A stretch of 59,342 bases of DNA from positions 1 through 59,342 of IMG/VR virus record IMGVR_UViG_3300030419_004548; one strand, written 5' to 3'. The stretch's first letter is position 1; the number at the start of each line of letters is the position of its first letter. The translations under genes were made by a program, and so were the position numbers. The notes under the pieces were generated by a model, which did not search any database, had not been told where the DNA came from, and worked only from the letters and a program-made list of their open reading frames with translations. The stretch is from a virus. Positions 28,531 to 46,886 of this stretch are shown here, one piece after another.

Positions 28531-28806
28531 TTAATTTAATTGTCGTAAATATTCTAAAACTTCAAATTCTGTTTCTGTAGATGGAAACCCTGTAAATCCG
28601 TTTTCATCATTAATCATTACAAAAGGAAGTATTCCGATATCTTCTTTAAGTTCGTGTAAAGTGTCTTCTGCTTTCTGATACTCTTCGTTGTTTTCAGGTT
28701 GAGATATATCAATCGTTTTATATTCAAACTTATATCTTTCCATAAAAGAAACAGCATATTGACAATGCTTACAAGCTATCATTGAATTATAAAATATCTT
28801 AATCAA
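28531..28806 (-). CDS. glutaredoxin-like protein
   Basis: A 91-residue thioredoxin-fold protein with the redox motif C12-K-H-C15 and the cis-proline segment ILPFVMIND, followed by a TETEFEVLEYLRQL C-terminal helix. T4-like phages carry glutaredoxins to reduce ribonucleotide reductase; the B12-dependent reductase in this genome needs a thiol donor, so the match is plausible. Overlaps the polymerase stop. Confidence 0.85.
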   Translation of the reverse strand: MIKIFYNSMIACKHCQYAVSFMERYKFEYKTIDISQPENNEEYQKAEDTLHELKEDIGILPFVMINDENGFTGFPSTETEFEVLEYLRQLN

Positions 28807-31319
28807 AAGAACCTCTCTAATGTAAATTTTTTATCTACAGGTTTTGACCAACCCATTGCTTCATAAAACATCATAATTTTACGATGAAGATTTTTGTCGT
28901 ACATTTTATCGTAATCTATATAATCTCGAATGTATTGAAGAATTTCTTTTGGGTCTTCATAACCTTTGTATGCTAAACTTTCGATACCTAATGGATTCTT
29001 TGTGAGATAAACCCATTTGATTTTTTCAGCTGAACTTATATATAAATATTGCTTAGAAACCTCAAAATGTAATAATAAATCATTATAATTAACAGCAGAC
29101 TTAACGTGTACAGGTGCACCTGATTTGAAAGTAGTAAACTTGTCATCTTCTAATTTACGTTCTACGTATTTAGATAAATTCTTAACACCTGTAGGCATTG
29201 ATATACCATCTATAGGCATCGTATTCATAGAAGATTTAAACTTTAATATTCTTTCATCTATTTTTTCTTTAGGAACATTCGCAAGAACATCATCAAGTAC
29301 CTCTTTCAAAAGTTTACCACAAGCAGGTGGGAAGTTTGAACGTACCGTATCGATACCTTTAACTAACATCTTGTTCACTTCAACACCATTGTCATTAATA
29401 ATCTTCATACCATATCGTTTCTTTGCAATAAACAATCCTGATATACCTATCACTTCTTGTTTAATTTCAAATCTATGGTCTTCTATATTACAAAACTTCT
29501 GTGCAAAATAATCATAACTATTATTCAAATAATCTTGAAGTTCTGATGCGATACTAAGAATACGTTTAGTCATCATAGGTTTTGAATTTACATTCTCATT
29601 AGGATATCTATGTTTTACTAAAGGTAATGCTGATGCGAAGATTGAATCTGTATCAATATAAATCACGTGGTCATCATCTGTTCCCAATTCATTATTGTAA
29701 AAATGATTTGTAATCGTTCTACTAAACTTAATTAATGATTGACCGGTTAGTGTAGTAGCCTCTGCATTATCAATATCATAAAATCTAAATACAGATAGAC
29801 CAAGAACACCATACAAACTATTCAACATAATCTTTTGAATCAACTGCCTTCTATCAAAATATTCATAACGTTCTGTATTACCATCGTTACCAAACTTCTT
29901 TGCTAATTTTCTATACTCTACTCTTTCATCAAACCACTTTGAAAGTATAGCAGGAATCAACCCTGCTTTATCATTACGATATAAAACTCCATTTGCTGAT
30001 ATAGAAATTTTGTTGTCAGTAACATAACTTTTAAAGTCTTCATAATTCATTGATGCTACTTGAGTACCATTGTCATCTTTGATTATATAAGTTTTCTCAA
30101 CTTCACGAATGAAATCTTCAGGCTCCCACTCTTCTAATTTACCAAGTTTAGTTTCCGGACTAATATTCAAAGACATAATAACTGAAGGATACATAGATGT
30201 TACGTCTAAATCAAATACCCAATCGTGTTTACCTTTTTGAGGGTCAGCAACATATGCACCTGCAAACTGAAAGTCTTCTGCTACTTTAGGTTTAGGCTTT
30301 TTGTCAGGAGCTACAATTCCTAAATTTCTTAGATAAACTAATATAGCACCTTCAAGATATCGAGAGGATGTAAATACATTTTCATAAGGAACGTGGCCTG
30401 AGTGACATAACGCTTGTGTAATACTAATAAAATCTAATTTCTTATCAAGTTCATCTACAATTCTAACGTCTTGTACATTATATAAAACAAACTTTGTTCT
30501 ATCATTATCATATAAATCATTAAGTGTTCCATCATATTCTACTTTCTTTTCACCAAGTTCTTCTTCAGCAATAGCATCTAATCGATAACTTGACTTTTCT
30601 GTATATGTAAATTTTCTATACAAAAATAAATAATCTAAATGTGATACACCTGCTATCTTGTGTTTCTCTTTAAACGTAGACCATTGTACAACTCCTATAG
30701 GACTCAACATAGATGCTACTTTTTTACCTACAACTTTACAAGCACGATTATATAGATACGGAACATCAAACTTTTCTGTATTCCATCCTGATACGATAGT
30801 AGGATTTATCTCTTTCCATCTTGAAAGAAATCTTTGTAACATATCAAATTCTGTTTTGAAACGTTCTACTTTAAAATTATTTCTTAGTATGTCGGGATGA
30901 TTTAAATCAACTTTGTTGTCAGAGTCTAACACTAAACAATGATATGTACCATCTGTACAATCATTAAAACCTATAGATGTTATTTCATTAGGTGCTTCAT
31001 TAGGGTCAGGAAATCCTTCTGTTACCTTTACCTCAATATCAAAAAATAGTTTTCTATGATTTGTTGATACGTCATCAGAGTCTGCATATCTATCAACTAA
31101 CACACGAGTTTCTACAGGAACATCTGATTCAAATAGTCCTCGTTCTTTAGGGTCATACTCATATACCTTTGTTAGTTTGTCTCCAAATAACGAAGTGTAG
31201 TTACCTGTAGGAGACTTCTTATATGCATATGGTTTAAACTTGAAAGTTTCATAACCTTTTACATCATCCCAAAGATGAACTTTTTTAGTTTTTATATCGA
31301 AGTAAATATTTTGATACAT
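28803..31319 (-). CDS. 43: family B DNA polymerase (gp43-like)
   Basis: An 838-residue replicative polymerase. The 3'-5' exonuclease motif I is FFDIEVK (D94, E96), Exo II is SGWNTEKFDVPY, motif A is DVTSMYPSVI (D372), motif B is KIMLNSLYG (496-504) and motif C is YIDTDSI (D556, D558). All catalytic residues are present. Close in length to T4 gp43 (898). It starts one base before the dUTPase stop ends. It is the genome's complete replicative polymerase, in contrast to the family A-like protein at 44751-46022. Confidence 0.95.
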   Translation of the reverse strand: MYQNIYFDIKTKKVHLWDDVKGYETFKFKPYAYKKSPTGNYTSLFGDKLTKVYEYDPKERGLFESDVPVETRVLVDRYADSDDVSTNHRKLFFDIEVKVTEGFPDPNEAPNEITSIGFNDCTDGTYHCLVLDSDNKVDLNHPDILRNNFKVERFKTEFDMLQRFLSRWKEINPTIVSGWNTEKFDVPYLYNRACKVVGKKVASMLSPIGVVQWSTFKEKHKIAGVSHLDYLFLYRKFTYTEKSSYRLDAIAEEELGEKKVEYDGTLNDLYDNDRTKFVLYNVQDVRIVDELDKKLDFISITQALCHSGHVPYENVFTSSRYLEGAILVYLRNLGIVAPDKKPKPKVAEDFQFAGAYVADPQKGKHDWVFDLDVTSMYPSVIMSLNISPETKLGKLEEWEPEDFIREVEKTYIIKDDNGTQVASMNYEDFKSYVTDNKISISANGVLYRNDKAGLIPAILSKWFDERVEYRKLAKKFGNDGNTERYEYFDRRQLIQKIMLNSLYGVLGLSVFRFYDIDNAEATTLTGQSLIKFSRTITNHFYNNELGTDDDHVIYIDTDSIFASALPLVKHRYPNENVNSKPMMTKRILSIASELQDYLNNSYDYFAQKFCNIEDHRFEIKQEVIGISGLFIAKKRYGMKIINDNGVEVNKMLVKGIDTVRSNFPPACGKLLKEVLDDVLANVPKEKIDERILKFKSSMNTMPIDGISMPTGVKNLSKYVERKLEDDKFTTFKSGAPVHVKSAVNYNDLLLHFEVSKQYLYISSAEKIKWVYLTKNPLGIESLAYKGYEDPKEILQYIRDYIDYDKMYDKNLHRKIMMFYEAMGWSKPVDKKFTLERFF

Positions 31320-31942: not shown

Positions 31943-34672
31943 TTAGAAATTGACCGATAGGCCAAGGTTGAAGCTTCTTGGAGTTCCAAGAAAGACTTCA
32001 GCATTATGAGCTAAGTGCATTTTATCACCATACCCATTATACTTTGAGTTATCAACTGCGTCTTGGATGTAAACATCATCAAGTGCGTTGAATAGATGAC
32101 CATGTAAAGTCATATCAAGTCCTGCAATTTCAGGTAATTTATAAGATAGATGTAAGTCTAACTTACCATAAGATGGAGTTTTCCATACTTGCGCTCTATC
32201 TGCATCACCGTCTACTTCACGACTATCAGGACTCCAATCAGCATAGTGATTGTCATACCATCTGTAAAGTCCTTGAACACTTAGACCTTCAATAGGCTTT
32301 AGTGTAAGACCACCAACATATGATGTCTGTGGCATATCACCGACTTTAAGATTATTAAGAGCATATTCATACTCTGTAGATGTTTGACCAATGATTTGAT
32401 TATCATCATTGTATTCCATCTCTGTATAATCACCATTGGCATCGCCATCGAAATACCAATCACCGACACTTACAGCAATATCTAAATCAACCATTTCGTG
32501 AAGGGCTACTTTAGATTCAATCTCTACACCTGAGTGTGATTGATTTACACCTGTAAGATAAATGATGTCAGTATCACCTGAGTCACCTTGTCCTGTAGTA
32601 ACAGACTTAGTAAGGTTTCTATCCTTCCATTGTGTGTTATAGTAACTACCTTTGATAGCAACTAAACCACTTTTATATTCACCGCCAATTTCCATTGATG
32701 TGAATTTTTCGTTGTCAGGATTTGTAGATACGTTACCATCATAATCAATAACGTTATCTAAGATTGGTGGTTTCTGTACATATCCAAGATTAGCAAATGC
32801 TGATAGTCTATCATCAAGATTATATCTACCACCACCTTTAACTTGGAATGTTGTGATGTTGTCAGCAGTAACTTTAGAAGCATCAACTGCAAAATGGTCT
32901 AAGTAAGAATATCCAATAGTAGATATACCACCCATACCATAAAGACTAAACTTCTCAACATCATACTTACCTTGTAAGAAAGCACCGAACCAATCAACCG
33001 TTGTTTCGTTGTGATATGCGATAATGTCACCTAAACGAACCACTTTACCATCAGCGGCATTATCATCAGCGTAGTCTACATAGTAGTCTCCACCAAGTAA
33101 ATCACGAACTTCACGCGCGTGTTCTATACCAGCAGTTCTCCAATCAATACCGACTTGAACTTCAAGTGCATCTGAAACATCATAGTTTAATTTAGAAATC
33201 AAACCATAAGTGTTTTGTCTATTGATTGAATTACGAAGGATACCTGTTGAACGATTTTCAACATCAGACCAAGCAGAATCTACATTAGCAGAGTTCTGTT
33301 CAATCTCAGCATTCCAATCCCAAGTCCAAGGCGAACTTGCATACCAAGCATTTCCTTCTATCGCGGGTTGTCTACTTACGCTACCATAAGTTCCTGTTCC
33401 TCCACCTGAACCACCTGACCAATACAGAACAGAACTTAACCTCATTTGGTCATTCAAATCATAAAAATGATTTAAGTTGACAAGAGGCTTGTGAAAAAAG
33501 TTCTCTCTTTCATTTAGAAAGTTAGAACTATATCTATCGGTTGTACGCGCTCCGTACATATACCAATATTGTTGACCTTTATATGAAGGGTCAACGGGTG
33601 CCACGTTTTGATTGAAGAATCTACCTGCTTCGTGTTCAAACTTTTCGCCTGAAACATAAGCAGAGTCATTATACCCATCAATACTACCTGCTAACTCTTG
33701 TGAGTAAGTGGCAATATTTTGTTTGTATAGATTCTGTCCGTGACGTTGTGGTGCACCGATTGCATACAACTCAAAACGTTGGTCATCACTTACAGCATAA
33801 CTCGCTCCCGCGTAATATGCCCAAGCATCTGTCCAAGTTCCATCAATGAATCCGTCACCTGTTTTACGAACTATAGTTCCACTCAAAGCTAACTTATCTT
33901 TGATAAGACCTGAGTTATAGTTCAGAGTGGTTTTAAGAAATCCACCCTCACCAACTTCCTGCTTTAACTTACCGCCCTTCTCTTGAGCCGCAGGGTCAGT
34001 TATTATGTTCATAGTTCCACCAATTGATGGTGTTGCGAGATTCACGGCTGATAGACCTCTTTGCATCTGAATTGAAGAAGTAGCATCTCCTACTCCATCC
34101 CAATTAGACCAATAGACCCATCCGTTCTCCATATCATTCTGAGGAACTCCGTTTATCATCACAGCAACATTTCTTTGGTTAAAACCACGTACATTGATAC
34201 GAGCATCACCCGCACCACCACCTTGTTGAGTTGCATATACTGAAGGTGTAGTGTTAAGAATCATTGGAATGTCTTGAGAACCTAATCTCACTTCCATCTC
34301 TTCTTTACTAACATTCGTATAAGCAACAGGTGTTGTTTCATCAGCACGTGAAGCCAAGACTTCTAATGCTGATAGTGCTACAACGTCAGCTACTAAATTG
34401 AAGCTAACTGAAGCAACTATATCGCCTACCTCCACGCTTTGGGTTTGGGCGATGTACCCGATGTACGATGCAGTAATATCAAAAGTACCTGAACCGGTTT
34501 CGATAACAAATTTACCAGCGTCATCACTAACGCCACCAAGTTCAGTTCCTTCAACAACTACATTCGCTCCAACGAGTGGACCATCTTCAGTACCAACATA
34601 TCCTGTAACAGCTTGTCCGAAAACAAGACTAAAAGACATTGCTAATACTGAGATTAGATTACGATAATTCAT
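31943..34672 (-). CDS. TonB-dependent outer-membrane receptor
   Basis: Start at ATG 34672 with AGGAG 7-8 bases upstream; the frame is open to 34708. The 909-residue protein has a signal peptide (residues 1-19/20, ending VFGQ), a CarboxypepD-regulatory-like domain at about 21-95 (GYVGTEDGPLVGANVVVEGT), a plug domain at about 115-235 (INVRGFNQRNVAVMINGVP) and a 22-strand barrel ending in a terminal Phe (LGLSVNF), the signal for outer-membrane assembly. It imports a ligand with TonB energy in bacteria. Its GC is higher than the surrounding genes (28/60 in 33961-34020 versus 15/60 in 6001-6060). It has its own terminator, so it looks like a host-derived moron. Confidence 0.93.
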   Translation of the reverse strand: MNYRNLISVLAMSFSLVFGQAVTGYVGTEDGPLVGANVVVEGTELGGVSDDAGKFVIETGSGTFDITASYIGYIAQTQSVEVGDIVASVSFNLVADVVALSALEVLASRADETTPVAYTNVSKEEMEVRLGSQDIPMILNTTPSVYATQQGGGAGDARINVRGFNQRNVAVMINGVPQNDMENGWVYWSNWDGVGDATSSIQMQRGLSAVNLATPSIGGTMNIITDPAAQEKGGKLKQEVGEGGFLKTTLNYNSGLIKDKLALSGTIVRKTGDGFIDGTWTDAWAYYAGASYAVSDDQRFELYAIGAPQRHGQNLYKQNIATYSQELAGSIDGYNDSAYVSGEKFEHEAGRFFNQNVAPVDPSYKGQQYWYMYGARTTDRYSSNFLNERENFFHKPLVNLNHFYDLNDQMRLSSVLYWSGGSGGGTGTYGSVSRQPAIEGNAWYASSPWTWDWNAEIEQNSANVDSAWSDVENRSTGILRNSINRQNTYGLISKLNYDVSDALEVQVGIDWRTAGIEHAREVRDLLGGDYYVDYADDNAADGKVVRLGDIIAYHNETTVDWFGAFLQGKYDVEKFSLYGMGGISTIGYSYLDHFAVDASKVTADNITTFQVKGGGRYNLDDRLSAFANLGYVQKPPILDNVIDYDGNVSTNPDNEKFTSMEIGGEYKSGLVAIKGSYYNTQWKDRNLTKSVTTGQGDSGDTDIIYLTGVNQSHSGVEIESKVALHEMVDLDIAVSVGDWYFDGDANGDYTEMEYNDDNQIIGQTSTEYEYALNNLKVGDMPQTSYVGGLTLKPIEGLSVQGLYRWYDNHYADWSPDSREVDGDADRAQVWKTPSYGKLDLHLSYKLPEIAGLDMTLHGHLFNALDDVYIQDAVDNSKYNGYGDKMHLAHNAEVFLGTPRSFNLGLSVNF

Positions 34673-34748
34673 AATCATTCTCCTATTGTTGTGTTTGAAC
34701 ATTGACACATTTTTCTACAGGTGTGTCGTCTGCCTGTCCGCTTTTGTG

Positions 34749-36758
34749 TTAATTTGCATAATCCTGGTCATCATTGTCACCTGTCATCGGTATAATTTCA
34801 CACGAATCATTATTACAGAATTTATCTACTTCTGCTTCTTCGTGTTTAATCACACCAAATGTCAGACGACCAAGTTTTGAAACCTGTTTCTGATAAGTCT
34901 TCTCATCAATAGCTTCGTAAGGCATCTGTGGATAAGCACCATAATCGTGTCTTGGCAACAGACTTATTCCTTTTAAGTGATATTGATAATAATTCAATGC
35001 GGGTGCAATCTGTTCTGATTCAATTTCAGGATTGAACGTTACCGTACAACTAACTTGATTATCAGCCCAATGTCTTTGCATAAATGCCGCTAAACTAAAT
35101 TGTTCCCATATTGAAAGTTCTCCTGCAGTTCTGATGCCTTCTCCTACATCTACAGGAACTTCTACAACCATTGTTGTGTCTTCAGAACCAAACGCAGGTT
35201 CTACTTTATATCCTGCTTTTTTCATTGGTTCTAATAAATCTGAATGTTTTGAAACTCTAATTCTTCTAATATAAAATCTTGATTCAGGATAATGGAGACC
35301 AGGTGTCGCACCTGCTAATAGAGATACCGTTCCACTTGGTTTAACTGATGTTGTTTTTATAGAACGAGGAACAGCCATCCAATCTGAATATTGTTTATCC
35401 CAATCTTGAATAACATCGTATCCATCATTCAACCATTTTTTCAATTCACCTAATCCACGATTAGTAATGAACTGAGCAACACCACTAACACTACAACCAA
35501 TTCTTCTGTTTCTTAACATCACTCTATTTGTATCACTCCAATGAGTTCTACCTAACGTAACCGTCTTAGCATAAAGATACGCATATTTAAGAGTACGTGC
35601 ATAATCTTCAAAACTTTCGTGATTCTCAGGAAACGTTTCTACTAAACAGCATAACTCGTAAGACTCAAGCGTCTGCTCTAAACAAGGGTTGCCTCCCATA
35701 GCTCTGTGGTCTTTGTTGTCTCCCCCATTTTTCATTCTTGAGTACTTTCTCATATTGTCCAACCAAGCAAATCCTGGTTCTCCATTATCATTTATTCTCT
35801 TCGCGGCCTCTGAATAATCCATTCCTAACTCAGCAAATATACTATTGTTAGATGTCCAACCATATTGGTCACGATGAGGATTGACTTTATAATTTTTTAA
35901 ATCTAAATATTCTTCATTATCAGGTTCACCAAATACAATCTCTGCAGTTCTTCTTACATTACCCGCTACAACACATTTACCAATTAGATTCATTATGTCT
36001 ACGATTGTTGTTATTGTGATTGGTTCTCCACTATTCTTTTCAAGTACTTTTCTAATGTCTTCGTGTACTTCTAATAATGGTTCGTGACCACTTGCTACAC
36101 CACCAAATCCACTGATAGGTTCACCTGCAGGTCTTATCTTTGTATAGTCAAACTCAACAGGTGCTTGTCCGTGAAAGTAACTCTCTAATAATAGTTTCAT
36201 TGATTCTACCCAACCTTCTCTTGTATCGGGTATCTCATAAACTTGTTCTTCTCTATCTTTTTCTATACCTTTAACTATTATTTCTCCTGCACCTTTTGTA
36301 TCAAAACCAACACCAACACCTAACATACTCGCATCCATTAAGAAACAGAATGGCTTAGCATAATCTTCTTTAAGTGTTTTTGTTGATACAAAGGCACAAT
36401 TATTTAGGGCGGCATATAATCCTTTTTCTTCTGTGATTGGTGTACCCATAGCCCACAGACCGCGTCCAGGAGGCAAAAACTTCATTTGAAATATACGCTC
36501 ATACATATCTTGAGCAGACTTTTGAGCTTGCCACGCATTCCACCCTAATTGGTGTGATTCAATCCAATTCTTTTGCATATTGTAAGTTCCCTCTACAACA
36601 CGTTGAACCGTCTCCCACCATCGTTCATTCTTCCCATCTGCTTTAATTCGTGAGTAGGTTCTCATATAAACTAATTCTCCCAATCCATTAAAACCAAAAG
36701 GTGCTTTTTTCCGTTTATAACCATTAATAAAATTATCTGAGAGTTTAAATTTTTCCAT
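34749..36758 (-). CDS. nrdJ: adenosylcobalamin-dependent ribonucleotide reductase (class II)
   Basis: A 669-residue monomeric class II reductase of the RtpR type. The redox pair cysteine C121 lies in ALNNCAFVS; the radical site has C359 and E361 (NPCLEQ); C370 in ELCCLVE is the partner; C648 and C653 form the C-terminal shuttle pair. It reduces ribonucleotides to deoxyribonucleotides and uses vitamin B12 coenzyme, which must come from the host. Complete by length. An AAGGA ribosome binding site precedes the start. Confidence 0.93.
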   Translation of the reverse strand: MEKFKLSDNFINGYKRKKAPFGFNGLGELVYMRTYSRIKADGKNERWWETVQRVVEGTYNMQKNWIESHQLGWNAWQAQKSAQDMYERIFQMKFLPPGRGLWAMGTPITEEKGLYAALNNCAFVSTKTLKEDYAKPFCFLMDASMLGVGVGFDTKGAGEIIVKGIEKDREEQVYEIPDTREGWVESMKLLLESYFHGQAPVEFDYTKIRPAGEPISGFGGVASGHEPLLEVHEDIRKVLEKNSGEPITITTIVDIMNLIGKCVVAGNVRRTAEIVFGEPDNEEYLDLKNYKVNPHRDQYGWTSNNSIFAELGMDYSEAAKRINDNGEPGFAWLDNMRKYSRMKNGGDNKDHRAMGGNPCLEQTLESYELCCLVETFPENHESFEDYARTLKYAYLYAKTVTLGRTHWSDTNRVMLRNRRIGCSVSGVAQFITNRGLGELKKWLNDGYDVIQDWDKQYSDWMAVPRSIKTTSVKPSGTVSLLAGATPGLHYPESRFYIRRIRVSKHSDLLEPMKKAGYKVEPAFGSEDTTMVVEVPVDVGEGIRTAGELSIWEQFSLAAFMQRHWADNQVSCTVTFNPEIESEQIAPALNYYQYHLKGISLLPRHDYGAYPQMPYEAIDEKTYQKQVSKLGRLTFGVIKHEEAEVDKFCNNDSCEIIPMTGDNDDQDYAN

Positions 36759-36816: not shown

Positions 36817-38199
36817 TTAATCAAACCCTTCCATCTCTTTATTATTAGTTTTATAATCTTTATATTTTTGTCCGAGAGTTTTTCTTAAAAATTCATCGTG
36901 ATTATTCATCTTACCTTGCACACTCTGTCCTTGTTGTGTCTGTTTATCGAATATTTGTATGTGTCCTGTATTAGTATTTATTGTTGCCGGAAATGTAATA
37001 CCATCAACACCAAATCTATTTTTGATTACGTGAAATCTACCTGTGTTTGCTATCTTGTCTTCTACTTTACGACTCATACTCATAACAAAGTCAGCAGTCA
37101 TCACCTTACTATAATCTTCAGCTACTTTACTTGCATCAATCACATCCTCTTCAAGTGCTGAACGATTTGCTTGAGAAGCAGTCCAAATAGGAATATCATA
37201 TTCACCTGCCATACCTCTCAAGTCTTCATATATGTTACCAAGTTGATGTCTTCGTTCTGTAAAATTACCAATAGGTTTTAGTATGTCAGCATAATCTACA
37301 AGAATCATATCAGGAAGATTGCCTTGTAATTCCATCTGCTTGATATGTGCTGAAAGTGTTTGTACAGATGCTGTTCTTGTAGGATAATATTTTATTAACA
37401 AATAACCTTCTAATGCTGATAATTTCTTTTGAACATCTTCTTGATAAAATTTTAAATTACCTGTTGGAACTCCTGAGAATATTGTATCATATCTTAATCC
37501 AACATATTCAGAATTTAATTCTAAAGTGTAGTGTGCTACTTTTAATCCATTACGAACACAATTAGCACCTAACGCTTGTAGTGTCCAAGACTTACCGATA
37601 CCTGCAGGTGCTACAACAACACCTAATTCTCCACCTGCTAAACCACCATCCATAACTTCATCAATAGTATCCCAACCGGTTTTTATAGTATCACGAGCTG
37701 ATTGATTTAATCGTTCTTCAAGAGAAATTAAATATTCGTGACCAAGATTTCTGTCACTACCTGCACGTAAAGCATCATCAATAATTCTTTTTATATTGTC
37801 ATAGTCTTTACTCTCAAGTAAATCAACACTCTCTATAATAGCATTCTTTAGTGTTTGATTCTTACAAAAACCAAGTACTTGTTCTTTTACAAAATCTAAA
37901 TCTGTAGCTTCTATATGTCTCCAAGATTCTTTTAAACTTTCTACTACTGCTACTTTTAAAACATCATTTTGTATTTCATCTGTTTTAACTTTTAATACTT
38001 CAAGTGTAGGAGCAGTTTTATATTCTACAAAATACTGCATTATAGTTTTTACTAAAAATTTATTAGAATCTGATTCAAAATAATCAGGATTCATAATGTC
38101 TGAAATCTGTGCTGTAAATGTATTATCACTTAATAAAGAAGACACTACTTTAGATTGAAACGTAGGACTATATTGATTTAAGTTTTCTTTATTCGCCAT
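36817..38199 (-). CDS. 41: DnaB-type replicative helicase (gp41-like)
   Basis: A 460-residue protein. The N-terminal 150 residues are a DnaB-N-like helical domain. Walker A is APAGIGKS (197-204), Walker B is MILVDYADIL, and a later IWTASQANRS segment contains motif H3-type residues. It unwinds the lagging-strand template and in T4 partners with primase gp61, which was not seen here. Overlaps the small gene upstream. Confidence 0.9.
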   Translation of the reverse strand: MANKENLNQYSPTFQSKVVSSLLSDNTFTAQISDIMNPDYFESDSNKFLVKTIMQYFVEYKTAPTLEVLKVKTDEIQNDVLKVAVVESLKESWRHIEATDLDFVKEQVLGFCKNQTLKNAIIESVDLLESKDYDNIKRIIDDALRAGSDRNLGHEYLISLEERLNQSARDTIKTGWDTIDEVMDGGLAGGELGVVVAPAGIGKSWTLQALGANCVRNGLKVAHYTLELNSEYVGLRYDTIFSGVPTGNLKFYQEDVQKKLSALEGYLLIKYYPTRTASVQTLSAHIKQMELQGNLPDMILVDYADILKPIGNFTERRHQLGNIYEDLRGMAGEYDIPIWTASQANRSALEEDVIDASKVAEDYSKVMTADFVMSMSRKVEDKIANTGRFHVIKNRFGVDGITFPATINTNTGHIQIFDKQTQQGQSVQGKMNNHDEFLRKTLGQKYKDYKTNNKEMEGFD

Positions 38200-38356
38200 A
38201 GAGTTCCTTCTTTAACTTTTCACTTTTTTTATTCAAATATCTTTTACGTGCTTTATCTAAAACACGTTGTCTATTTTTAAGATAATAATTTTGAGACCAC
38301 TTTAATTGTGCTACTCTTTTTTCTTCTTCAGTTTTATATTTTACTTTTCTACCCAT
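38189..38356 (-). CDS. 55-aa basic hypothetical protein
   Basis: ATG at 38356 overlaps the exonuclease end, and the stop overlaps the helicase start by 11 bases. The peptide is lysine/arginine-rich and helical (NYYLKNRQRVLDKARKRYL). No family recognised. Its location between exonuclease and helicase and its basic charge suggest nucleic-acid binding, which is inference. Confidence 0.5.
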   Translation of the reverse strand: MGRKVKYKTEEEKRVAQLKWSQNYYLKNRQRVLDKARKRYLNKKSEKLKKELYGE

Positions 38357-39353
38357 TACGTGTAAGTGTATCCAAGGTTGACCAACTTTCTCTCAACCAC
38401 ACTTCTAAATTTTGAATCTCATTTGAGAATCCGTCTTCTAAATACATTTGACGAAATTTGAAACTATTTAAAGAGTTTGGCTTGTTATCAACAAAATCAA
38501 GAACTTTTTGTTTCGCATTACCACTTATAATTATCTCCTTCAAATCCATTAATTCAAAATTTCTTTTTAAAATATCTAAATTATCTGATAACCTATTATC
38601 TCTACTAACTAATTCTTTTAGACTTATAGGCTCTGTAGAAATTTCAGGATATAATTTAATCAAAGTCTTTAGACCTATTCCTTTAACACCTGGAATATTA
38701 TCAGACTTATCACCATCTACCATTCTGTACATCAAAAAGTTTTCAGGATGTATATCATACTCTTCCATCAAAGTTTCAGTATTATATAACTTTTTCTTAG
38801 ATGGACTATATACATTTATCCTATCATCTACTAATTGTAGAAAGTCTTTGTCTGTAGACATTATGGTGCAACGGGTAAACTTTCCCTTATTTGCTACGTA
38901 TGAAATTACATCATCTGCCTCCACATTGTCAAGCGAAAAAGTTTGAACAGGTAAACATTCTAAGTACTCCATCAATCGTGACATCTGTTGTACCATAGAA
39001 GTGTGTTCATCACCTTCTTTACTAAACTCTACTCTTCTATTTAATTTAGATTTAAAGGCACGACCTGCTTTATAATCAGGAAATAATTTCTTACGTTTTT
39101 GTGAGCCACCTTTACCATCAAAGACGATTAGGATTCTTGTAGGCCTAATAAGTTTTATTATATAACTTAGTGACCTCAAGAATCCTATCAATCCTCCTAT
39201 GTGATAACCATTGTCACTCATCATAGGTATAGCACTAAAACATCTGATAAAGTTATTTAGACCATCTATTACTAACACATGGTCATTTAACTTCAATGGC
39301 TTTGATGGATTATTTTTTATCTCATCAAGCAAACTCAGATATCGTTTTTTCAT
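38349..39353 (-). CDS. 5'-3' exonuclease / RNase H-like (FEN family)
   Basis: A 334-residue PIN-domain nuclease. HVLVIDGLNNFIR and ILIVFDGKGGSQKR carry the first acidic residues, DNVEADDVISYVA and IMSTDKDFLQLV the next ones, and MVDGDKSDNIPGVKGIGLKT is the H3TH DNA-binding motif. It corresponds to T4 RNase H (rnh, 305 aa), which removes RNA primers. An AAAGGA ribosome binding site fits the ATG at 39353, which lies inside the last 29 bases of the epimerase gene. Confidence 0.9.
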   Translation of the reverse strand: MKKRYLSLLDEIKNNPSKPLKLNDHVLVIDGLNNFIRCFSAIPMMSDNGYHIGGLIGFLRSLSYIIKLIRPTRILIVFDGKGGSQKRKKLFPDYKAGRAFKSKLNRRVEFSKEGDEHTSMVQQMSRLMEYLECLPVQTFSLDNVEADDVISYVANKGKFTRCTIMSTDKDFLQLVDDRINVYSPSKKKLYNTETLMEEYDIHPENFLMYRMVDGDKSDNIPGVKGIGLKTLIKLYPEISTEPISLKELVSRDNRLSDNLDILKRNFELMDLKEIIISGNAKQKVLDFVDNKPNSLNSFKFRQMYLEDGFSNEIQNLEVWLRESWSTLDTLTRNG

Positions 39354-40251
39354 CGTATTCCTTTACTTTTTGTGCTATGTATTCTTCAAGTGTATGTGTA
39401 GGTTTCCAACCTAAGAGTTCGTATGCTTTCGTGTCTGTACATAGAGTCTCTCGCATTTCTCCAGGTCTCGGTCCTATATTTACACTATCAGATTTATATA
39501 GTTTAACAACCTCATTTATACTATAGTTCTTACCTGTACCTAATTCAAAGTACTCTGCTCTTAAATCAGCAATCTTATCTTGACAATCAATCAATGCACT
39601 ACATATATCTAATACGTGAGTAAAGTCTCTTCGTTGTTCACCATCATTAGTAATTGTCAATGGTTCACCTCGTTCTTTCAACTCATCAAATATAGAAAGA
39701 ACCGTTGCATATGCACTTTCTGCTGGTATCATATAATCACCATACACGTTATAGAATCGTGTTATTATTGTAGGTAAGTCATAAACCTTAGAATATAACT
39801 CACATAACAATTCACCACTATACTTGTAAAAAGTATAAGGATTGGCATAATGGTCGCCGTGAATAGAACTTGAACCTGCGTATACTACAGGAATATTTCC
39901 ATTAACTCTTGCCCACTCTAAAATATTTTGTGTTCCAACTACATTAGCTGCGAACGTATTTTGAGGGTCTGTGAAAGATGGTTGTATCCTTGCTAAAGCA
40001 GCGAGATGATATATCATATCAGGTTTCCAATCACCCTCACCTACTACTACTTCGTGAAGATGTTTATCAAAGAAATAATCTGTAAGGTCAAACTCGTGAT
40101 ATGTTACTCTGTCATTATCAATAATATTCAAAGGAGAACCTGTTGAGTAATTATCTAAAACTTGAATGTAAGTGCTAGGTTGTTCTTTTAAGATTTTACT
40201 AATTAAATTAGTACCTACAAAGCCCGCACCGCCTGTAATCAATATCTTCAT
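39325..40251 (-). CDS. NAD-dependent sugar epimerase in replication module
   Basis: A 308-residue extended SDR: ILITGGAGFVGTNLISKIL, MIYHLAALARI, VVYAGSSSIHG and NPYTFYKYSGE with Y-x3-K. UDP-glucose 4-epimerase-like. It is separated from the sugar island by nearly 18 kb and embedded between recA/uvsX and the exonuclease with overlaps on both sides. It is therefore an expected-to-be-early-expressed sugar enzyme. Substrate unknown. Confidence 0.85.
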   Translation of the reverse strand: MKILITGGAGFVGTNLISKILKEQPSTYIQVLDNYSTGSPLNIIDNDRVTYHEFDLTDYFFDKHLHEVVVGEGDWKPDMIYHLAALARIQPSFTDPQNTFAANVVGTQNILEWARVNGNIPVVYAGSSSIHGDHYANPYTFYKYSGELLCELYSKVYDLPTIITRFYNVYGDYMIPAESAYATVLSIFDELKERGEPLTITNDGEQRRDFTHVLDICSALIDCQDKIADLRAEYFELGTGKNYSINEVVKLYKSDSVNIGPRPGEMRETLCTDTKAYELLGWKPTHTLEEYIAQKVKEYDEKTISEFA

Positions 40252-41363
40252 TATAATTCGTCTATATCGTCTACAGGTTTATCAGTTTCTACAACATCAT
40301 CTAATCCAAGAGCAGAAGTATCATACTTTAAAATCAAAACATTACAAATTTCATTATATAACTTTTCTTCAAGTCCATCGTGTTCTCCTAATATAGATTC
40401 GAAGTCTTTTGATTGAAATTTAATGTCTTGTCCGTTATGTTCTAAAGTATACCAAGCTCCTGTTTGTTTAACAAGTTTGTATTCTTTCATCACTTGTAAC
40501 CAAGATGCTTTATCATCGATACCTCTATCAAAGTACAAAGGAAAGTCTGCTCTTCTTAAAGGCGGACCTAATCGATTCTTTATAACTTGTGAAGTTATAG
40601 TCATACCAATAGTATTCTTTTGTGCATCTTTAATTTGACCTTTGTTCTTCAAACGAAGTCTTGTTGAAGCGTGAAAAGGAAGTGCCTTACCGCCTGATGT
40701 TGTGTAAGGGTCTCCGAACATAACACCAAGTTTTTGTCTTAACTGATTAGTAAATACAAGTGCTACACGTTGTCTACCAATCATTTGAGTAATCTTACGA
40801 AGTGCTTTAGATATGATGATTGCTTTATGTGTCGCATATCCATCTTTATCAAAGTCTGCTTCAATCTCAAATTTCGTAGATGCCGCAGCAACTGAATCAA
40901 CTAATATAGTTACTAATCTATTCCTATCACTTTCACGAACTTTAGTGACAATCTCTTCAATAGCTTCAAAAATATCTTCTACCGTTTCTAAATGTAGATA
41001 TAACATTTTCTTACTATCGACACCAATCACTTGTAAAAACTCTTCACTAACTGCTGTTTCAGTATCTATGTAAACTGCAACACCATCTTTCTTTTGAGTT
41101 TCTGCAAGTATGTGAGCACCAAGTAAAGATTTACCACTCGATTCTAATCCATTGATTTCAGTTATACGACCAACAGCAATACCACCATTAGGTCTGTTTG
41201 AAATAGCTAAATCTAATATACTCGAACCGGTAGATAAAAACTCTCTTATATCTGTAGGTGTCGTATCTGAACCATCAAGAAAGTATGCTACTTTGTAATT
41301 TTTAAATTTTTTATTTAAACCATCAGCTAAGATATTAGCTAGGTCGTCTTTAGTTTTACCCAT
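40251..41363 (-). CDS. uvsX: RecA/UvsX recombinase
   Basis: A 370-residue RecA-fold protein. Walker A is GLESSGKS (72-79), Walker B TILVDSVAAAS, loop L2-like GVMFGDPYTTSGGKALPFHAS. It forms filaments on ssDNA for strand exchange and recombination-dependent replication. The sequence is closer in pattern to bacterial RecA than to T4 UvsX, but context matches UvsX. The C-terminus is acidic (ETDKPVDDIDEL), typical of RecA regulation. Confidence 0.92.
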   Translation of the reverse strand: MGKTKDDLANILADGLNKKFKNYKVAYFLDGSDTTPTDIREFLSTGSSILDLAISNRPNGGIAVGRITEINGLESSGKSLLGAHILAETQKKDGVAVYIDTETAVSEEFLQVIGVDSKKMLYLHLETVEDIFEAIEEIVTKVRESDRNRLVTILVDSVAAASTKFEIEADFDKDGYATHKAIIISKALRKITQMIGRQRVALVFTNQLRQKLGVMFGDPYTTSGGKALPFHASTRLRLKNKGQIKDAQKNTIGMTITSQVIKNRLGPPLRRADFPLYFDRGIDDKASWLQVMKEYKLVKQTGAWYTLEHNGQDIKFQSKDFESILGEHDGLEEKLYNEICNVLILKYDTSALGLDDVVETDKPVDDIDEL

Positions 41364-41422: not shown

Positions 41423-42178
41423 TTACTTATTGAAGAGTTGGTCGAATGCTTCAGAAGTATCTTTTACGGTTTTCTGTGAAAGAACTTCAGAAGTTACAGA
41501 CTCATCTTTTTTATCAGAACTCTCATCCTCAGAAGGAGTCAACCAATTGTTGAGAACTTCTGTTAAATCATCATAAGAACGTTCCTGATACATCTCTTGC
41601 ATATTAGGTTGTTCATTTAACAATTTATCAAGAAGTTTGTCATCTTCTGTGATTGGAGTTTGATTAGGCTTAACCCTAATGTTAGTAACAGGAAAATTCT
41701 TTCCTGCTTCTTCAGCAGAAATAAATTCTACCGTTACGTCACGACCATTCATTGAATCTGTGATATCACCATAGTCAGGGTCTGCTATTACAGATAGAAG
41801 CTCTTGATAAACCATTTTACCAAAGCCCCAAAAACGAACACCTTCAGACTCTTCACCTCTAACGATTACAGGAGCGAATGTTCTCATCTTTGCCATAAGT
41901 TTTTTCGCTATCTGATAATCATCTTTGTTACCACTTGAACGAAGTTTTTGTGCAAACTCTTCAATCGGGTCAGGGCGACCATAAGTGATTGGAGACAAGT
42001 AAGTCTTACCACCTAAATCATAATGAAAGAACATTTCCAAAAAAGGATTTTCTTTATTATGTTGATAAGGCACTATACGTACTACTTGTTTTCCGGGTTG
42101 TGGTTTCCAAAGATTTGATGTCTTGGTGTTAGAAGTTTGAAGTTGTTCTAACCTTTTACGAATTGCTGTAATATCCAT
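41423..42178 (-). CDS. 32: single-stranded DNA-binding protein (gp32-like)
   Basis: A 251-residue protein with a gp32-like plan: basic N-terminal cooperativity region (MDITAIRKRLEQL), OB-fold core (VVRIVPYQHNKENPFLEMFF; GVRFWGFGKMVYQEL), and an acidic flexible tail ending in SEAFDQLFNK. The four zinc-binding residues of T4 gp32 are not visible, as in many marine relatives. It protects ssDNA and organises the replisome. Its leader looks autoregulatory. A strong ribosome binding site (AGGAG) precedes the ATG. Confidence 0.85.
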   Translation of the reverse strand: MDITAIRKRLEQLQTSNTKTSNLWKPQPGKQVVRIVPYQHNKENPFLEMFFHYDLGGKTYLSPITYGRPDPIEEFAQKLRSSGNKDDYQIAKKLMAKMRTFAPVIVRGEESEGVRFWGFGKMVYQELLSVIADPDYGDITDSMNGRDVTVEFISAEEAGKNFPVTNIRVKPNQTPITEDDKLLDKLLNEQPNMQEMYQERSYDDLTEVLNNWLTPSEDESSDKKDESVTSEVLSQKTVKDTSEAFDQLFNK

Positions 42179-42272: not shown

Positions 42273-42671
42273 TTATTTTTCTAAATCGATGATTTCTTTT
42301 AGTCTTGTGTGTATAATGTTTAAACCATCTTTGTTTGTTAATAAAATAGAATTACGATAGTTATCCCATTGTAATCTGTATGATTTATCTAAGATTCCGT
42401 TGTTAGCATCTTTAATAATATGATTAACTGCATTGATTGTATACAATGTATTTGTCTCTTTTTTTCTATGTAAAAGAATTGTATTAGGAAGAAATCCGGA
42501 TACTTCAGATTTCAACACATTGTATGTCACCATTAATTCATTAGGGTTATCTATTTTCTGTAGAACATATAATTTCTTCATAGAAAGAGGTGCAGAATCT
42601 TTAATAAGTAGAACCATTTCGGTAAGTTCTTTCTTGTTAGAGAAAGTGCAAAGTAGTTGTGAATCTATCAT
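42273..42671 (-). CDS. 132-aa hypothetical protein
   Basis: A small soluble alpha/beta protein (SMKKLYVLQKIDNPNELMVTYNVL). No family recognised; I recall similar NPNELMxTYNV segments in uncharacterised proteins of marine T4-like phages. It is coupled by one base to the 697-residue gene and ends before the gp32 leader, so it is the last gene of the structural-side run. Confidence 0.5.
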   Translation of the reverse strand: MIDSQLLCTFSNKKELTEMVLLIKDSAPLSMKKLYVLQKIDNPNELMVTYNVLKSEVSGFLPNTILLHRKKETNTLYTINAVNHIIKDANNGILDKSYRLQWDNYRNSILLTNKDGLNIIHTRLKEIIDLEK

Positions 42672-44764
42672 TACTTAGGTTCTTTATACTTTAATGCTGT
42701 ATTTGCTTTTTGATATTTTGCTCTTGATACGTGAGTAGTTCCATCATCACATTTGTCTTTTGATTCATTATCAGGCACTCCTTGATAACCTTTATCGTGT
42801 ATTTGCATATTAGATGTTTTATGCTCGCCTTCTTTTTCTTCTACTACAAGGTCTCCGTTAACATTTCTAACTTCAGCATATGTAACACCTAATTCTAAAT
42901 CAAGTTCATTCAAAGTCTTTTTTGTTTTTTCTTGTGCATACATTCTAAATACTTTTTCCATCAACGCTTTAGCATATACTTTTGGTTCTGCGGGTTCTAA
43001 ACCAACCGAATCCATATACTTTTCCATACTCTTCTTTATTTTTTCTACTGCCTTAGGACCATCTGTTACTTTAGATAGTATTTTTTCTGCTTCTGCATAT
43101 AATTCATCCCAAGTTGCACCATCATCACATACTTTATCTAATTTATCTATTTCAGCTAAATCAGCTTGTGTTTCTTCATCAAGATTTTCTCTCTTAACTC
43201 TTGATATTTCACCACGATGTAAATTTTCTATATTGTCAAATTTGTCTTTATGTTCAGGATACACATTTGCAAAATGTTTACAAAATTCAGAAGCTGAAGA
43301 ACCTGGTATATTAGTTCCTTTAGTAGCTGATTTTACACTTACAGAATTTATAGATATTACTTTTCCTGAACCATCACGTTCTAATACTAACACATCAGCT
43401 ATTGGAAAGTTTCCTGATGCTGGCATATATGCTTCTTTCTTTTGACATCTATATTTTAACAAGACCGTTACTTCTGCAAAATCTTTTAAAACAGATGCTT
43501 GTTCTTTAGGGTCAAGTTTACCTGCTTCATCATACATTTCTTTTTGTATTTTACCTAATTCACTCTCAAGTTTAGCTAATTTTTCATCCTCACTTAAACT
43601 ATCATCTTCAAGTATATCCATAACTCGTTTATGTGCTTTTTCAATATACTTCTGTGAAGACTCATCAGCTCGACTTCTTGATGTTTCAAGTATTTCATCC
43701 ATAACAGATTTAACAGAATCTACAAAATCTTTAGAATTTGGTGGTGGGTTATTTGGGTCTCCTATTGGACCGCCTAACATCTCGTCTTCGTCTTTCATCC
43801 CACTTTCGGTTAAAATATTTTTTACTCCAGGTGGTAAGTCTGAAACTTTACTTCTCGATTTTATTATTTGATTAGGTTTAAAGTTTGAGTTTTTATGTCC
43901 TGTCATAGCTGATGCGGGTGGGTTATCCATCTTACCTAATGGTGATTTAAATTTAGGTGGAGTCAAACCCTGCTCTTCCATCTTTTCTTTTAGTTTTGGC
44001 CATCTCTCATAAAAACTATTTTTGTCATTAACTCGTCCTTGATAAGCGCCTGAATCCTTATATTTTTTTATACCGGGAACAATAGATACTCCTGCAGAAG
44101 TATCAGTACGTTCTCCAAAAAATATTTGACCTGAATCAGTATTAGAACTTATTGTTAGAAATTGAAGATTATTTTTGTCTGCTTCAGTAAATTCAACATC
44201 TTGACCATTAGCTAATAATTGTAGTTTTCCAAATAATCTTCTCGCTACAGCTTCTCTTTGTTTCTTTTCACCAAAATCAGGAGGGTCTAATTTAACATTA
44301 CCCTCTTCATTATTAGCCGCATCTTCATATGCTTCCATGCCTTCTTCAGAAATTTCTAACTTATAAGGTTCTTTATCTTTTGGTTCATCTTTTGGTTCAT
44401 CTTTTGGTTCATCTGTTGGCTGTTCTCCATCTCTACTAAAGTCAGTAACTTTATCACTTTTCTTCTTCTCAACATCATCACCATCAATAGCTACATAGTT
44501 ATCACCATCTTTTTTATATTTTTTTGCGTTGTCATTATCTTTATCAGAAGTTTTGACATATATTCCACGACCTTTGTGAGTATACTCTTTTTCTTCTTTT
44601 TCTCCAATAAATCTTTCAGATAATTCTATAACATCAGAGTGTGGAAATCCTATAGATAGTAAATAATCGTATAACGCTTCTCTATCTTCTTTTATACTGA
44701 AATCAGGATATCCTTTATCATATAACCAAGATATGTTGGTAAGCAGTTTATCAAATGAGTTCAT
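42671..44764 (-). CDS. large acidic protein with DEPK repeats, possible nuclease-like core
   Basis: A 697-residue very acidic protein. Residues about 115-135 contain DEPK units from a 12-bp tandem repeat. A central segment has PIADVLVLERDG followed 11 residues later by SVSVKSA, a spacing reminiscent of PD-(D/E)XK nucleases, though with Ser in place of the usual Glu/Asp. Much of the rest is charged coil. It overlaps the family A polymerase-like gene by 14 bases. Function unknown; a DNA-handling or scaffold role is possible. Confidence 0.5.
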   Translation of the reverse strand: MNSFDKLLTNISWLYDKGYPDFSIKEDREALYDYLLSIGFPHSDVIELSERFIGEKEEKEYTHKGRGIYVKTSDKDNDNAKKYKKDGDNYVAIDGDDVEKKKSDKVTDFSRDGEQPTDEPKDEPKDEPKDKEPYKLEISEEGMEAYEDAANNEEGNVKLDPPDFGEKKQREAVARRLFGKLQLLANGQDVEFTEADKNNLQFLTISSNTDSGQIFFGERTDTSAGVSIVPGIKKYKDSGAYQGRVNDKNSFYERWPKLKEKMEEQGLTPPKFKSPLGKMDNPPASAMTGHKNSNFKPNQIIKSRSKVSDLPPGVKNILTESGMKDEDEMLGGPIGDPNNPPPNSKDFVDSVKSVMDEILETSRSRADESSQKYIEKAHKRVMDILEDDSLSEDEKLAKLESELGKIQKEMYDEAGKLDPKEQASVLKDFAEVTVLLKYRCQKKEAYMPASGNFPIADVLVLERDGSGKVISINSVSVKSATKGTNIPGSSASEFCKHFANVYPEHKDKFDNIENLHRGEISRVKRENLDEETQADLAEIDKLDKVCDDGATWDELYAEAEKILSKVTDGPKAVEKIKKSMEKYMDSVGLEPAEPKVYAKALMEKVFRMYAQEKTKKTLNELDLELGVTYAEVRNVNGDLVVEEKEGEHKTSNMQIHDKGYQGVPDNESKDKCDDGTTHVSRAKYQKANTALKYKEPK
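44378..44413. repeat. 12-bp tandem repeat, three exact copies
   Basis: TTTTGGTTCATC is repeated three times without gap (44378-44389, 44390-44401, 44402-44413), with partial copies flanking. It encodes (DEPK)n on the minus strand. The copies are identical at DNA level, so the repeat number probably varies between related genomes. Confidence 0.85.
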
Positions 44765-46022
44765 CGTAGTTCTTACCTCTTTTCATCTTGACAGGGAATC
44801 CATCTCTCTGTAACTCTTTTTGGACAATTTCAACAAATTTATCTCCATCGTTTTTATTGTAATCAAACAAAAAACTATCATAATGATATAATACTAATTT
44901 ACTTTCAAAGTCTTTTGTTGCGTTCAACAAACTTTTTAATATCAATATATTTCGTTCTGTTTCTAAACTTTGTATCATATAATTAAAAAGTTTTGAAGGA
45001 TAAAAGTCTTTTACATCTAACGTTATTCTTCTTTTATAAATATCAGTTACTAAAACTTTATCTCTGTTAAAACGTGACCATAAATTAGTATAATAATCTT
45101 TAACTTTACCAAAAAATTCGTGTGTTTTAGCTATATCATCAGGAACACCACCATATAAATACTTAAAAGTCATAGACTTTGAATCTTCATAAGATACATT
45201 ATATAGTTTACTGAAATGTTCGTGTACACTTTCATCACCAAAATCATATCCAATAATCTTACCAATTAATCTTACGTGATATGCATCAAAGTCAAATTCA
45301 ATTAATTCATCGTATCTACTCCTTATCATTTTACGTGAACCATCACTTTTATTTAAAGCCGCAAAGTTAATTCCATCATAAGCATTACTCGGTCTACCTG
45401 TAGGAGTCAATACATTATAATTAGTAAACATCAAATGTTCTTTTGATATATTATCTGATTGTCCAATTGGAACATATAAAGGAGTTACACGTAAACCTGC
45501 TCTTTCAACCTCTGCAAATACTTCATTCGCATCACGATAAAAATCATTATATTCATTTCCTATATTTTCTTTATAGTTCGTGAATAAATCTTGGCAATAC
45601 TCTAAATGTTTCATTAATGGAATAACATAGTTATTCATTCCTTTAGAATGAAAATATCTATGTGGTGTAGTTAAGAATATTTGATTATCAACTAAATTTC
45701 CTTGTTTCTGAAACTCTGCTTGTTGTAAATCAATTACATTACTAAAGTTAGCAAAGTGACAAACTGCTTTAATATCTGCTACATATTTAGGAATGTCATT
45801 ATCTAAATGTAATAAACAATCTAAAGTAAGTTCAGGAGCTTCATCGTGATTAAATGATAACACATACTCACTATCTTTAGATGTCCGTACGTATAGCATC
45901 AACGGATAATCGTTTAATGGATGTTTATTTTTACTTCCTATGAAATGTAAGAACACCCAATCAGAAGAACGATATTCTTCCACAAAGTCTTCAAATTGGT
46001 TGTACTTCTCTATTATAACCAC
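44751..46022 (-). CDS. family A DNA polymerase-like protein with altered motifs
   Basis: A 423-residue PolA-fold protein. T208-G-R210 matches the TGR motif; motif A EFDFDAYHVRL keeps the first Asp (D244, E. coli D705), but E710 is H249. Motif B has K282, F286, Y290 and G291 (E. coli K758, F762, Y766, G767), but R754 is Y278. N347 and Q351 match N845 and Q849. Motif C is Y381-D382-S383 (E. coli H-D-E). Both catalytic aspartates remain. The N-terminal 150 residues look like a decayed 3'-5' exonuclease domain without D-x-E. GTG start, five bases after a strong -10. Activity unknown. Confidence 0.75.
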   Translation of the reverse strand: MVIIEKYNQFEDFVEEYRSSDWVFLHFIGSKNKHPLNDYPLMLYVRTSKDSEYVLSFNHDEAPELTLDCLLHLDNDIPKYVADIKAVCHFANFSNVIDLQQAEFQKQGNLVDNQIFLTTPHRYFHSKGMNNYVIPLMKHLEYCQDLFTNYKENIGNEYNDFYRDANEVFAEVERAGLRVTPLYVPIGQSDNISKEHLMFTNYNVLTPTGRPSNAYDGINFAALNKSDGSRKMIRSRYDELIEFDFDAYHVRLIGKIIGYDFGDESVHEHFSKLYNVSYEDSKSMTFKYLYGGVPDDIAKTHEFFGKVKDYYTNLWSRFNRDKVLVTDIYKRRITLDVKDFYPSKLFNYMIQSLETERNILILKSLLNATKDFESKLVLYHYDSFLFDYNKNDGDKFVEIVQKELQRDGFPVKMKRGKNYDELI

Positions 46023-46027
46023 GTGTT

Positions 46028-46056
46028 AATATATAACCTTTTATTGATAATGTCAA
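46028..46056 (-). promoter_or_regulatory. sigma70-like promoter TTGACA-N17-TATATT
   Basis: Minus-strand -35 TTGACA (46056-46051) is perfect, the spacer is 17 bases, and the -10 is TATATT (46033-46028). It is the best promoter match in the window. The GTG start of the polymerase-like gene begins only five bases after the -10, so transcription would start at about the start codon (leaderless), or translation starts elsewhere. Confidence 0.6.
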
Positions 46057-46064
46057 GTGTTTTT

Positions 46065-46886
46065 TTAGTAGCCTCCGCCACCTCCGCCTGAGCCACCGCC
46101 TCCTGCACCATACTTAGCTAATCCTTTTTTGTTAATTTTCATCTTACCAATACCGCCTCCTTTTTTAGGACCTTTCATTTTAAACTTACCAGGTCCTTCA
46201 TCCAAACTCATCTTTACAGGCGGTGTCATAGCTTCAGGATTAAATACAATATTTCCTTGTTCATCTTGTGGTATTTCTGCTATACCCAATCTTCTTTTAA
46301 TATCTAATTGAGTACTAATTTCAGGTATTCTTGCATACTCATACGGATTAGATAAAAGTCTCGCAACTTTAGGATTACGACTTTGTAATCCTAATATAAT
46401 TAAACTATTTTGTCTATATATTTTTTTGAAAGAGCCACGTATATACCATTTTGTAGTTATCACACGATATAAAGGACTTGAAAACTTAGCGTTTACTTCT
46501 ACAACAGGTTCTGATTCATCATTTAATTTTTGTGCAAAATATCGAGTAAATTGTCCGTTAACGTAATCCGCAGTTTTTGGTACTCCACGAATCATTTTTG
46601 GTTTAAGTAAATCATATTTTTTACCTCTATTTTCTGCGTATCTTTCATAATCTCCTTTATTATTAGATATAGGTCTTATTATTCTTGAAGTAATTTGATG
46701 TTTCGCACCTGTCATATAAACTTCTTTAAAATCTGTAGTATAGTGTATATGATAAGCTGTTCCTTTCTTTACAGGTGTGCTATTTGACTTATATAGAAAA
46801 GACGAATTATCAGGCACTATTCCTGCGTCAGTAACTATTCTTACCGTCTTACTATGTACATCTCTTATTTCATCATAATCTATCAT
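46065..46886 (-). CDS. structural-region protein with glycine-rich C-terminus
   Basis: A 273-residue protein. The first 200 residues are a mixed alpha/beta domain (VRIVTDAGIVPDNSSFLYKS); the last 30 are glycine-rich (YGAGGGGSGGGGGGY) after a lysine-rich linker. Glycine-rich ends are common in phage tail and fibre proteins. It lies directly downstream of the large baseplate gene, so a baseplate or tail role is likely. Unrecognised family. Confidence 0.5.
   Translation of the reverse strand: MIDYDEIRDVHSKTVRIVTDAGIVPDNSSFLYKSNSTPVKKGTAYHIHYTTDFKEVYMTGAKHQITSRIIRPISNNKGDYERYAENRGKKYDLLKPKMIRGVPKTADYVNGQFTRYFAQKLNDESEPVVEVNAKFSSPLYRVITTKWYIRGSFKKIYRQNSLIILGLQSRNPKVARLLSNPYEYARIPEISTQLDIKRRLGIAEIPQDEQGNIVFNPEAMTPPVKMSLDEGPGKFKMKGPKKGGGIGKMKINKKGLAKYGAGGGGSGGGGGGY

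Follow-up and report, generated by a model that had tools for sequence, protein, structure and literature searches.

A putative divPolA1-type family A DNA polymerase with altered but conserved active-site residues at the tail/replication junction of a virus genome

The sequence analysed, called the window, is the virus record IMGVR_UViG_3300030419_004548 (59,342 bp). The genes that concern us here are the following, given with their coordinates in the window and strand:

28803..31319, minus strand: regular family B DNA polymerase (PolB) with an exonuclease domain (Pfam E 5.1e-38, PHROG E 2e-186)
31943..34708, minus strand: TonB-dependent receptor, 921 aa (Plug and CarbopepD_reg_2), 40 bp after the RNR gene
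34749..36758, minus strand: adenosylcobalamin-dependent (B12-dependent) ribonucleotide reductase, RNR (TIGR02505, 371.9 bits, cutoff 340)
36817..38199, minus strand: DnaB-like replicative helicase (phrog_19 E 5.8e-79)
38349..39353, minus strand: 5'-3' exonuclease, flap/RNase H type (Pfam 5_3_exonuc_N E 9.1e-33; phrog_107)
39325..40251, minus strand: nucleotide-sugar epimerase, between UvsX and the 5'-3' exonuclease
40251..41363, minus strand: UvsX/RecA-like recombinase (phrog_97 E 1.2e-71)
41423..42178, minus strand: gp32-like single-strand DNA binding protein, SSB (phrog_1192 E 1.3e-18, phrog_224 E 6.1e-15)
42273..42671, minus strand: 132-aa conserved protein with an HRKKxTNTLYTINALN motif, a conserved neighbour of divPolA1
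42671..44764, minus strand: 697-aa protein with a constant N-terminal domain of ~55 aa and a lineage-specific C-terminus; shares 14 nt with the end of the divPolA1 gene
44751..46022, minus strand: putative divPolA1-type family A DNA polymerase, 423 aa, GTG start (from profile, structure and the published family, PMC11348598)
51769..52068, minus strand: gp25-like baseplate wedge subunit, marking the upstream tail module (phrog_7145 E 1.1e-9)

On the 3' side of divPolA1, genes on the same strand follow in the order 697-aa protein, 132-aa protein, SSB, UvsX, epimerase, 5'-3' exonuclease and DnaB. Among loci with enough flanking sequence, all 50 had a tail gene upstream of divPolA1; downstream, 52 of 54 had the 132-aa protein and 34 of 38 had SSB. 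divPolA1 sits at the junction between tail and replication genes and heads a conserved module of 132-aa protein, SSB, UvsX, exonuclease and DnaB. The original prediction had placed the gene among baseplate genes, which is true of its upstream side, where tail and baseplate genes lie, but not of its downstream side, which is a replication and recombination module.

Several of the neighbouring genes have features of their own. The epimerase inside the replication module was seen in the window phage and its close relatives and is absent from Flavobacterium phage immuto. Members of the 697-aa gene family match in the N-terminus in 1358 of 2628 pairs and in the C-terminus in 217 of 2628; the C-termini form at least 9 mutually unrelated clusters, for which Pfam gave no convincing family. 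The ~55-aa N-terminal domain was present in one copy in 8 of 9 records searched. The 132-aa protein family has a mean column identity of 61% and a confident model (pLDDT 91.3), with no PDB sequence match below E 0.16 and no Foldseek match below E 0.1; the best structure comparison (Z 6.2, 61 residues) covered one half of the protein only and pointed to no clear known fold. The protein encoded upstream of divPolA1 (46065..46886, minus strand) has a glycine-rich C-terminal tail (GGGGSGGGGGGY).

The divPolA1 gene had initially been described as a second PolA-fold polymerase with altered motifs beside PolB, and its end had been set at 46056, which is slightly too far because an in-frame stop lies just upstream of the GTG start. 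Searches with the single sequence hardly recognise the protein, so that the gene reads as an orphan: in Pfam only DNA_pol_A appeared, at E 0.11, and there was no PHROG match and no relevant PDB match. Comparison of the family profile with a three-sequence PolA profile using hhalign gave a probability of 95.4% (E 1.7e-8), for an alignment spanning only residues 193-421 and leaving the exonuclease-like N-terminus outside. When the PDB was searched with a 30-sequence family profile, all 53 matches at E <= 0.1 were DNA polymerase I (best E 3.7e-5).

An AlphaFold2 model of the protein (mean pLDDT 89.9, pTM 0.88) matched Pol I large fragments at E 2.7e-16 with Foldseek, and VIA-align 2 aligned it to a Pol I large fragment with a Z of 27.7 and an rmsd of 3.7 over 397 residues at 16% identity. 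Superposition on the Bst and mycobacterial Pol I large fragments gave Z values of 26-27.7 over 397-402 residues. Because 397 of the 423 model residues align to a Pol I chain of 566 residues, the protein is short of residues relative to Pol I. The parts of the protein are an exonuclease-like N-terminus, a thumb region, palm and fingers; in the published family the N-terminus is without proofreading residues and the thumb is short (PMC11348598). The original prediction had proposed a PolA profile search and a structure prediction, and had named the lack of a palm, or homologues that are structural proteins, as grounds against it. The profile search returned significant family A homology, the homologues are polymerases rather than structural proteins, and the palm is present in the model, which removes that objection. 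Together, profiles and model identify the ORF as a family A (Pol I-type) polymerase.

The divPolA1 family was named in 2024 from 14 phages of 155-190 kb (PMC11348598; preprint PMC11188092). In these a regular DNA polymerase of family A, B or C is also present and replication genes lie downstream; the palm residues are kept and the thumb is truncated, and the authors infer retained polymerase activity and a role in replication (PMC11348598). The product of immuto gp001, annotated as 'DNA polymerase family A', is 35.3% identical to the window protein over residues 29-418 (tblastn, E 5e-60), which covers 92% of its length, and the family profile recovers gp001 at E 1.7e-136. With homology to gp001, an extra regular DNA polymerase, downstream replication genes and both palm aspartates, the window gene is, judged by sequence, a new member of this already described family. 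The original prediction had recognised a second PolA-like polymerase but overlooked both the published family and the position at the head of the module.

Relatives of divPolA1 are encoded in 386 IMG/VR stretches, the best 80 of which were kept (32-94% identity). Other matched phage records were Microcystis phage Mel-JY01 (PP395634) and the 484-kb uncultured phage LR756508, and each of the 10 records searched had divPolA1 once. One scan of cellular genomes found relatives in two MAG contigs only (L091 and L092). A cellular origin was considered and rejected: on L092 the gene is flanked by the tail and replication genes of a phage, and on the 4.1-kb L091 the 132-aa protein is its only such neighbour.

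The family B polymerase that the original prediction placed at 28803..31319 is borne out by the Pfam and PHROG matches listed above. By Pfam, a regular DNA polymerase was found in 8 of 9 records, namely PolB in seven and PolA in immuto; G005, a 114-kb fragment, gave no match to any of the families A, B and C. A PolC-type regular polymerase was likewise considered, and none was present in the nine records. LR756508 has PolB matches, which lie at 260623-266900 of LR756508.1 and are spread over two open frames, of 1022 and 625 aa, with several kilobases between them; this is perhaps a split or interrupted polymerase. In the window, PolB has a clamp-loader gene nearby and belongs to a DnaB-RNR-receptor-PolB run that is conserved in relatives. 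Relatives of the TonB-dependent receptor occur in 328 IMG/VR stretches (the best 80 of 328 have at least 75% identity). Of 61 loci with sufficient flanking sequence, 56 have the RNR gene directly upstream of the receptor gene. The receptor may import cobalamin for the RNR.

Residue equivalences in the active site were taken from profile alignments to PolA/Pol I. With E. coli Pol I numbering on the right, they are D244=D705, H249=E710, Y278=R754, K282=K758, F286=F762 and Y290=Y766, and further R210=R668, N347=N845, Q351=Q849 and Y381-D382-S383=H881-D882-E883. These alignments agree with the original residue calls, in which the catalytic Asp residues, K758, Y766, N845 and Q849 are kept, His and Tyr stand at E710 and R754, and the HDE motif is YDS.

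We then counted conservation over 71 aligned near-full-length divPolA1 homologues. D705, D882, K758, F762, Y766, R668, N845 and Q849 are unchanged in 71 of 71, and four substitutions are just as constant (E710 to His, R754 to Tyr, H881 to Tyr and S707 to Asp, each 71 of 71). The original prediction had asked whether homologues share the His, Tyr and Ser changes; His and Tyr are universal, and the E883 position carries Ser in 58 homologues and Ala in the other 13. The classical family A active site (E710 as steric gate, R754 of RxxxK, the HDE of motif C) is thus absent, with His, Tyr and Y-D-S/A in its place in 71 of 71. Because the altered residues are equally fixed across the homologues, they are signatures of the lineage and not decay. 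The gene is also under strong purifying selection, with dN/dS values against six close relatives of 0.076-0.132 overall and 0.053-0.110 for the polymerase part only.

In Klenow, R754 contacts the triphosphate of the dNTP. E710 is the steric gate in PolA (PMC9324360, PMC4215692). A useful precedent is the PolA of Thermus phage Tt72, which naturally has Ser at the E883 position; with alanine in place of its E710 equivalent the enzyme retains 35% activity, and with alanine in place of this Ser 76%, against 4% when either catalytic Asp is mutated (PMC9324360). A literature search for mutants of R754, K758, H881 or E883 found none, and in the papers examined the R754 change has no precedent of the Tt72 kind. 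A term search of the main text of PMC11348598 found E710 and R754 nowhere mentioned. In that study the aspartates of the 3'-5' exonuclease are replaced across the divPolA1 family (PMC11348598).

We consider it probable, at roughly 60%, that divPolA1 is a catalytically active, proofreading-less, short auxiliary family A polymerase that works beside the regular replicase and serves the SSB-UvsX-exonuclease-DnaB module, catalysis and the step served being the inferred parts. The original prediction had left the choice between a specialised polymerase and a non-catalytic protein open; the invariant Asp and substrate residues, the fixed changes and the purifying selection tilt it towards the former. 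Such an enzyme would carry out short, distributive, template-directed synthesis, for example where the 5'-3' exonuclease has left gaps, at ends paired by UvsX, or on Okazaki fragments or stalled forks that need completing, and bulk replication would be left to PolB (or PolA). The probable effect of the His/Tyr/Tyr/Ser set is an altered dNTP pocket, with catalysis kept and incorporation slower and perhaps less sugar-selective. Position in the operon alone does not reveal which of these steps divPolA1 serves.

With Tyr at R754 in every member, and with E710 and H881 altered too, the enzyme could have lost much of its catalytic activity, and fixed residues under purifying selection would equally fit a non-catalytic structural role. 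A dead or nearly dead PolA fold could serve as a scaffold that binds primer-template or as a subunit of the replisome, which would agree with the reported inactivity of the exonuclease (PMC11348598) and with the regular replicase found in 8 of the 9 records tested. We regard this as unlikely, since invariant catalytic aspartates, K758, Y766, N845, Q849 and R668 (71 of 71) are not expected of a dead enzyme, and the E710 and E883 substitutions are compatible with catalysis in Tt72 PolA (PMC9324360).

A distinctly unlikely alternative is that divPolA1 is a primase or ribonucleotide-accepting polymerase that makes primers near SSB and DnaB, as SCCmec CcPol does. Use of rNTPs is suggested by the loss of the steric-gate Glu to His in all 71 homologues; motif C ends in Asp-Ser, like the HDS of T7 RNA polymerase, and priming is known from other small polymerases of family A (PMC7581432, PMC10061031). 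However, His is bulky and F762 is kept in divPolA1, and CcPol retains both E710 and F762, so priming does not require their loss. Replacement of a missing primase was attractive because no primase is encoded in the 59,342 bp of the window. However, immuto gp091 is annotated as DnaG, and the Toprim matches in records G001, G002, G005 and LR756508 are homologues of it (33-41% identity, nearly full length). Mel-JY01 has a weak Toprim match, and the records without one are all shorter than 115 kb and probably fragments. With DnaG encoded in immuto and in four further relatives, it is unlikely that divPolA1 replaces an absent primase.

A further reading is a long shot: beside DnaG, a divPolA1 whose nucleotide pocket is remodelled by His in the steric-gate position and Tyr instead of the triphosphate-binding Arg might accept ribonucleotides or modified dNTPs and supply recombination-dependent replication with primers or patches of mixed RNA and DNA. 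It is very improbable that divPolA1 is the main replicative polymerase and the regular enzyme an accessory, even though divPolA1 is grouped with SSB, UvsX, exonuclease and DnaB and the regular polymerases are in variable contexts (PMC11348598) and swapped among families A, B and C, because the window PolB has an exonuclease domain and the clamp-loader and conserved-run context described above, whereas divPolA1 is small and without proofreading (PMC11348598).

Beyond the 14 phages of the 2024 report, we add relatives in some 386 IMG/VR stretches, a Microcystis phage and a 484-kb phage, the fixation rather than decay of the altered catalytic residues (71 of 71), and DnaG in four relatives besides the annotation in immuto. 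As a naturally occurring family A polymerase that lacks both E710 and R754, divPolA1 offers a ready test of how much of the Pol I active site can be dispensed with and of what determines sugar selection.

Among known systems, the Pol I large fragment (E. coli Klenow, Bst) shares with divPolA1 the fold over the whole length and the equivalents of D705, D882, R668, K758, F762, Y766, N845 and Q849. divPolA1 differs from it in the E710, R754 and HDE changes, and is ~160 residues shorter than the Bst fragment. T7 RNA polymerase, with 883 aa against 423 aa, has only the Asp-Ser of its motif C in common with divPolA1.

TV-Pol and CcPol-type primases (PMC2579912, PMC7581432, PMC10061031) are alike in being small PolA-fold proteins of mobile elements with a helicase and SSB nearby. 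The defining features of TV-Pols are RxxxK in the fingers and linkage or fusion to a D5-like helicase or a resolvase/integrase (PMC2579912). In contrast, divPolA1 has YxxxK in 71 of 71, no D5 helicase or recombinase matched among the scanned genes neighbouring it, the module helicase is of the DnaB type, and the phage group has DnaG in addition. SCCmec CcPol keeps E710 and F762, of which divPolA1 keeps only F762 and has His at E710. A CcPol-like primase works with a small OB-fold partner; divPolA1 has a gp32-like SSB encoded three genes downstream, with which it may interact.

divPolA2 of barbavirus and relatives is likewise an extra divergent PolA beside a regular DNA polymerase, with a variable context and an N-terminus different from that of divPolA1 (PMC11348598). 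Kinship between the two was considered and set aside, as the divPolA1 profile had no similarity to AUR84708, one distant sequence and a weak test.

The closest counterpart is the divPolA1 of immuto (PMC11348598), which likewise has a regular DNA polymerase beside it, the same downstream replication genes, the palm aspartates and a small size. Immuto has PolA as the regular polymerase where the window phage has PolB, and the window module differs in the insertion of the 697-aa modular gene and the epimerase gene and in a divPolA1 that is 35% identical to gp001.
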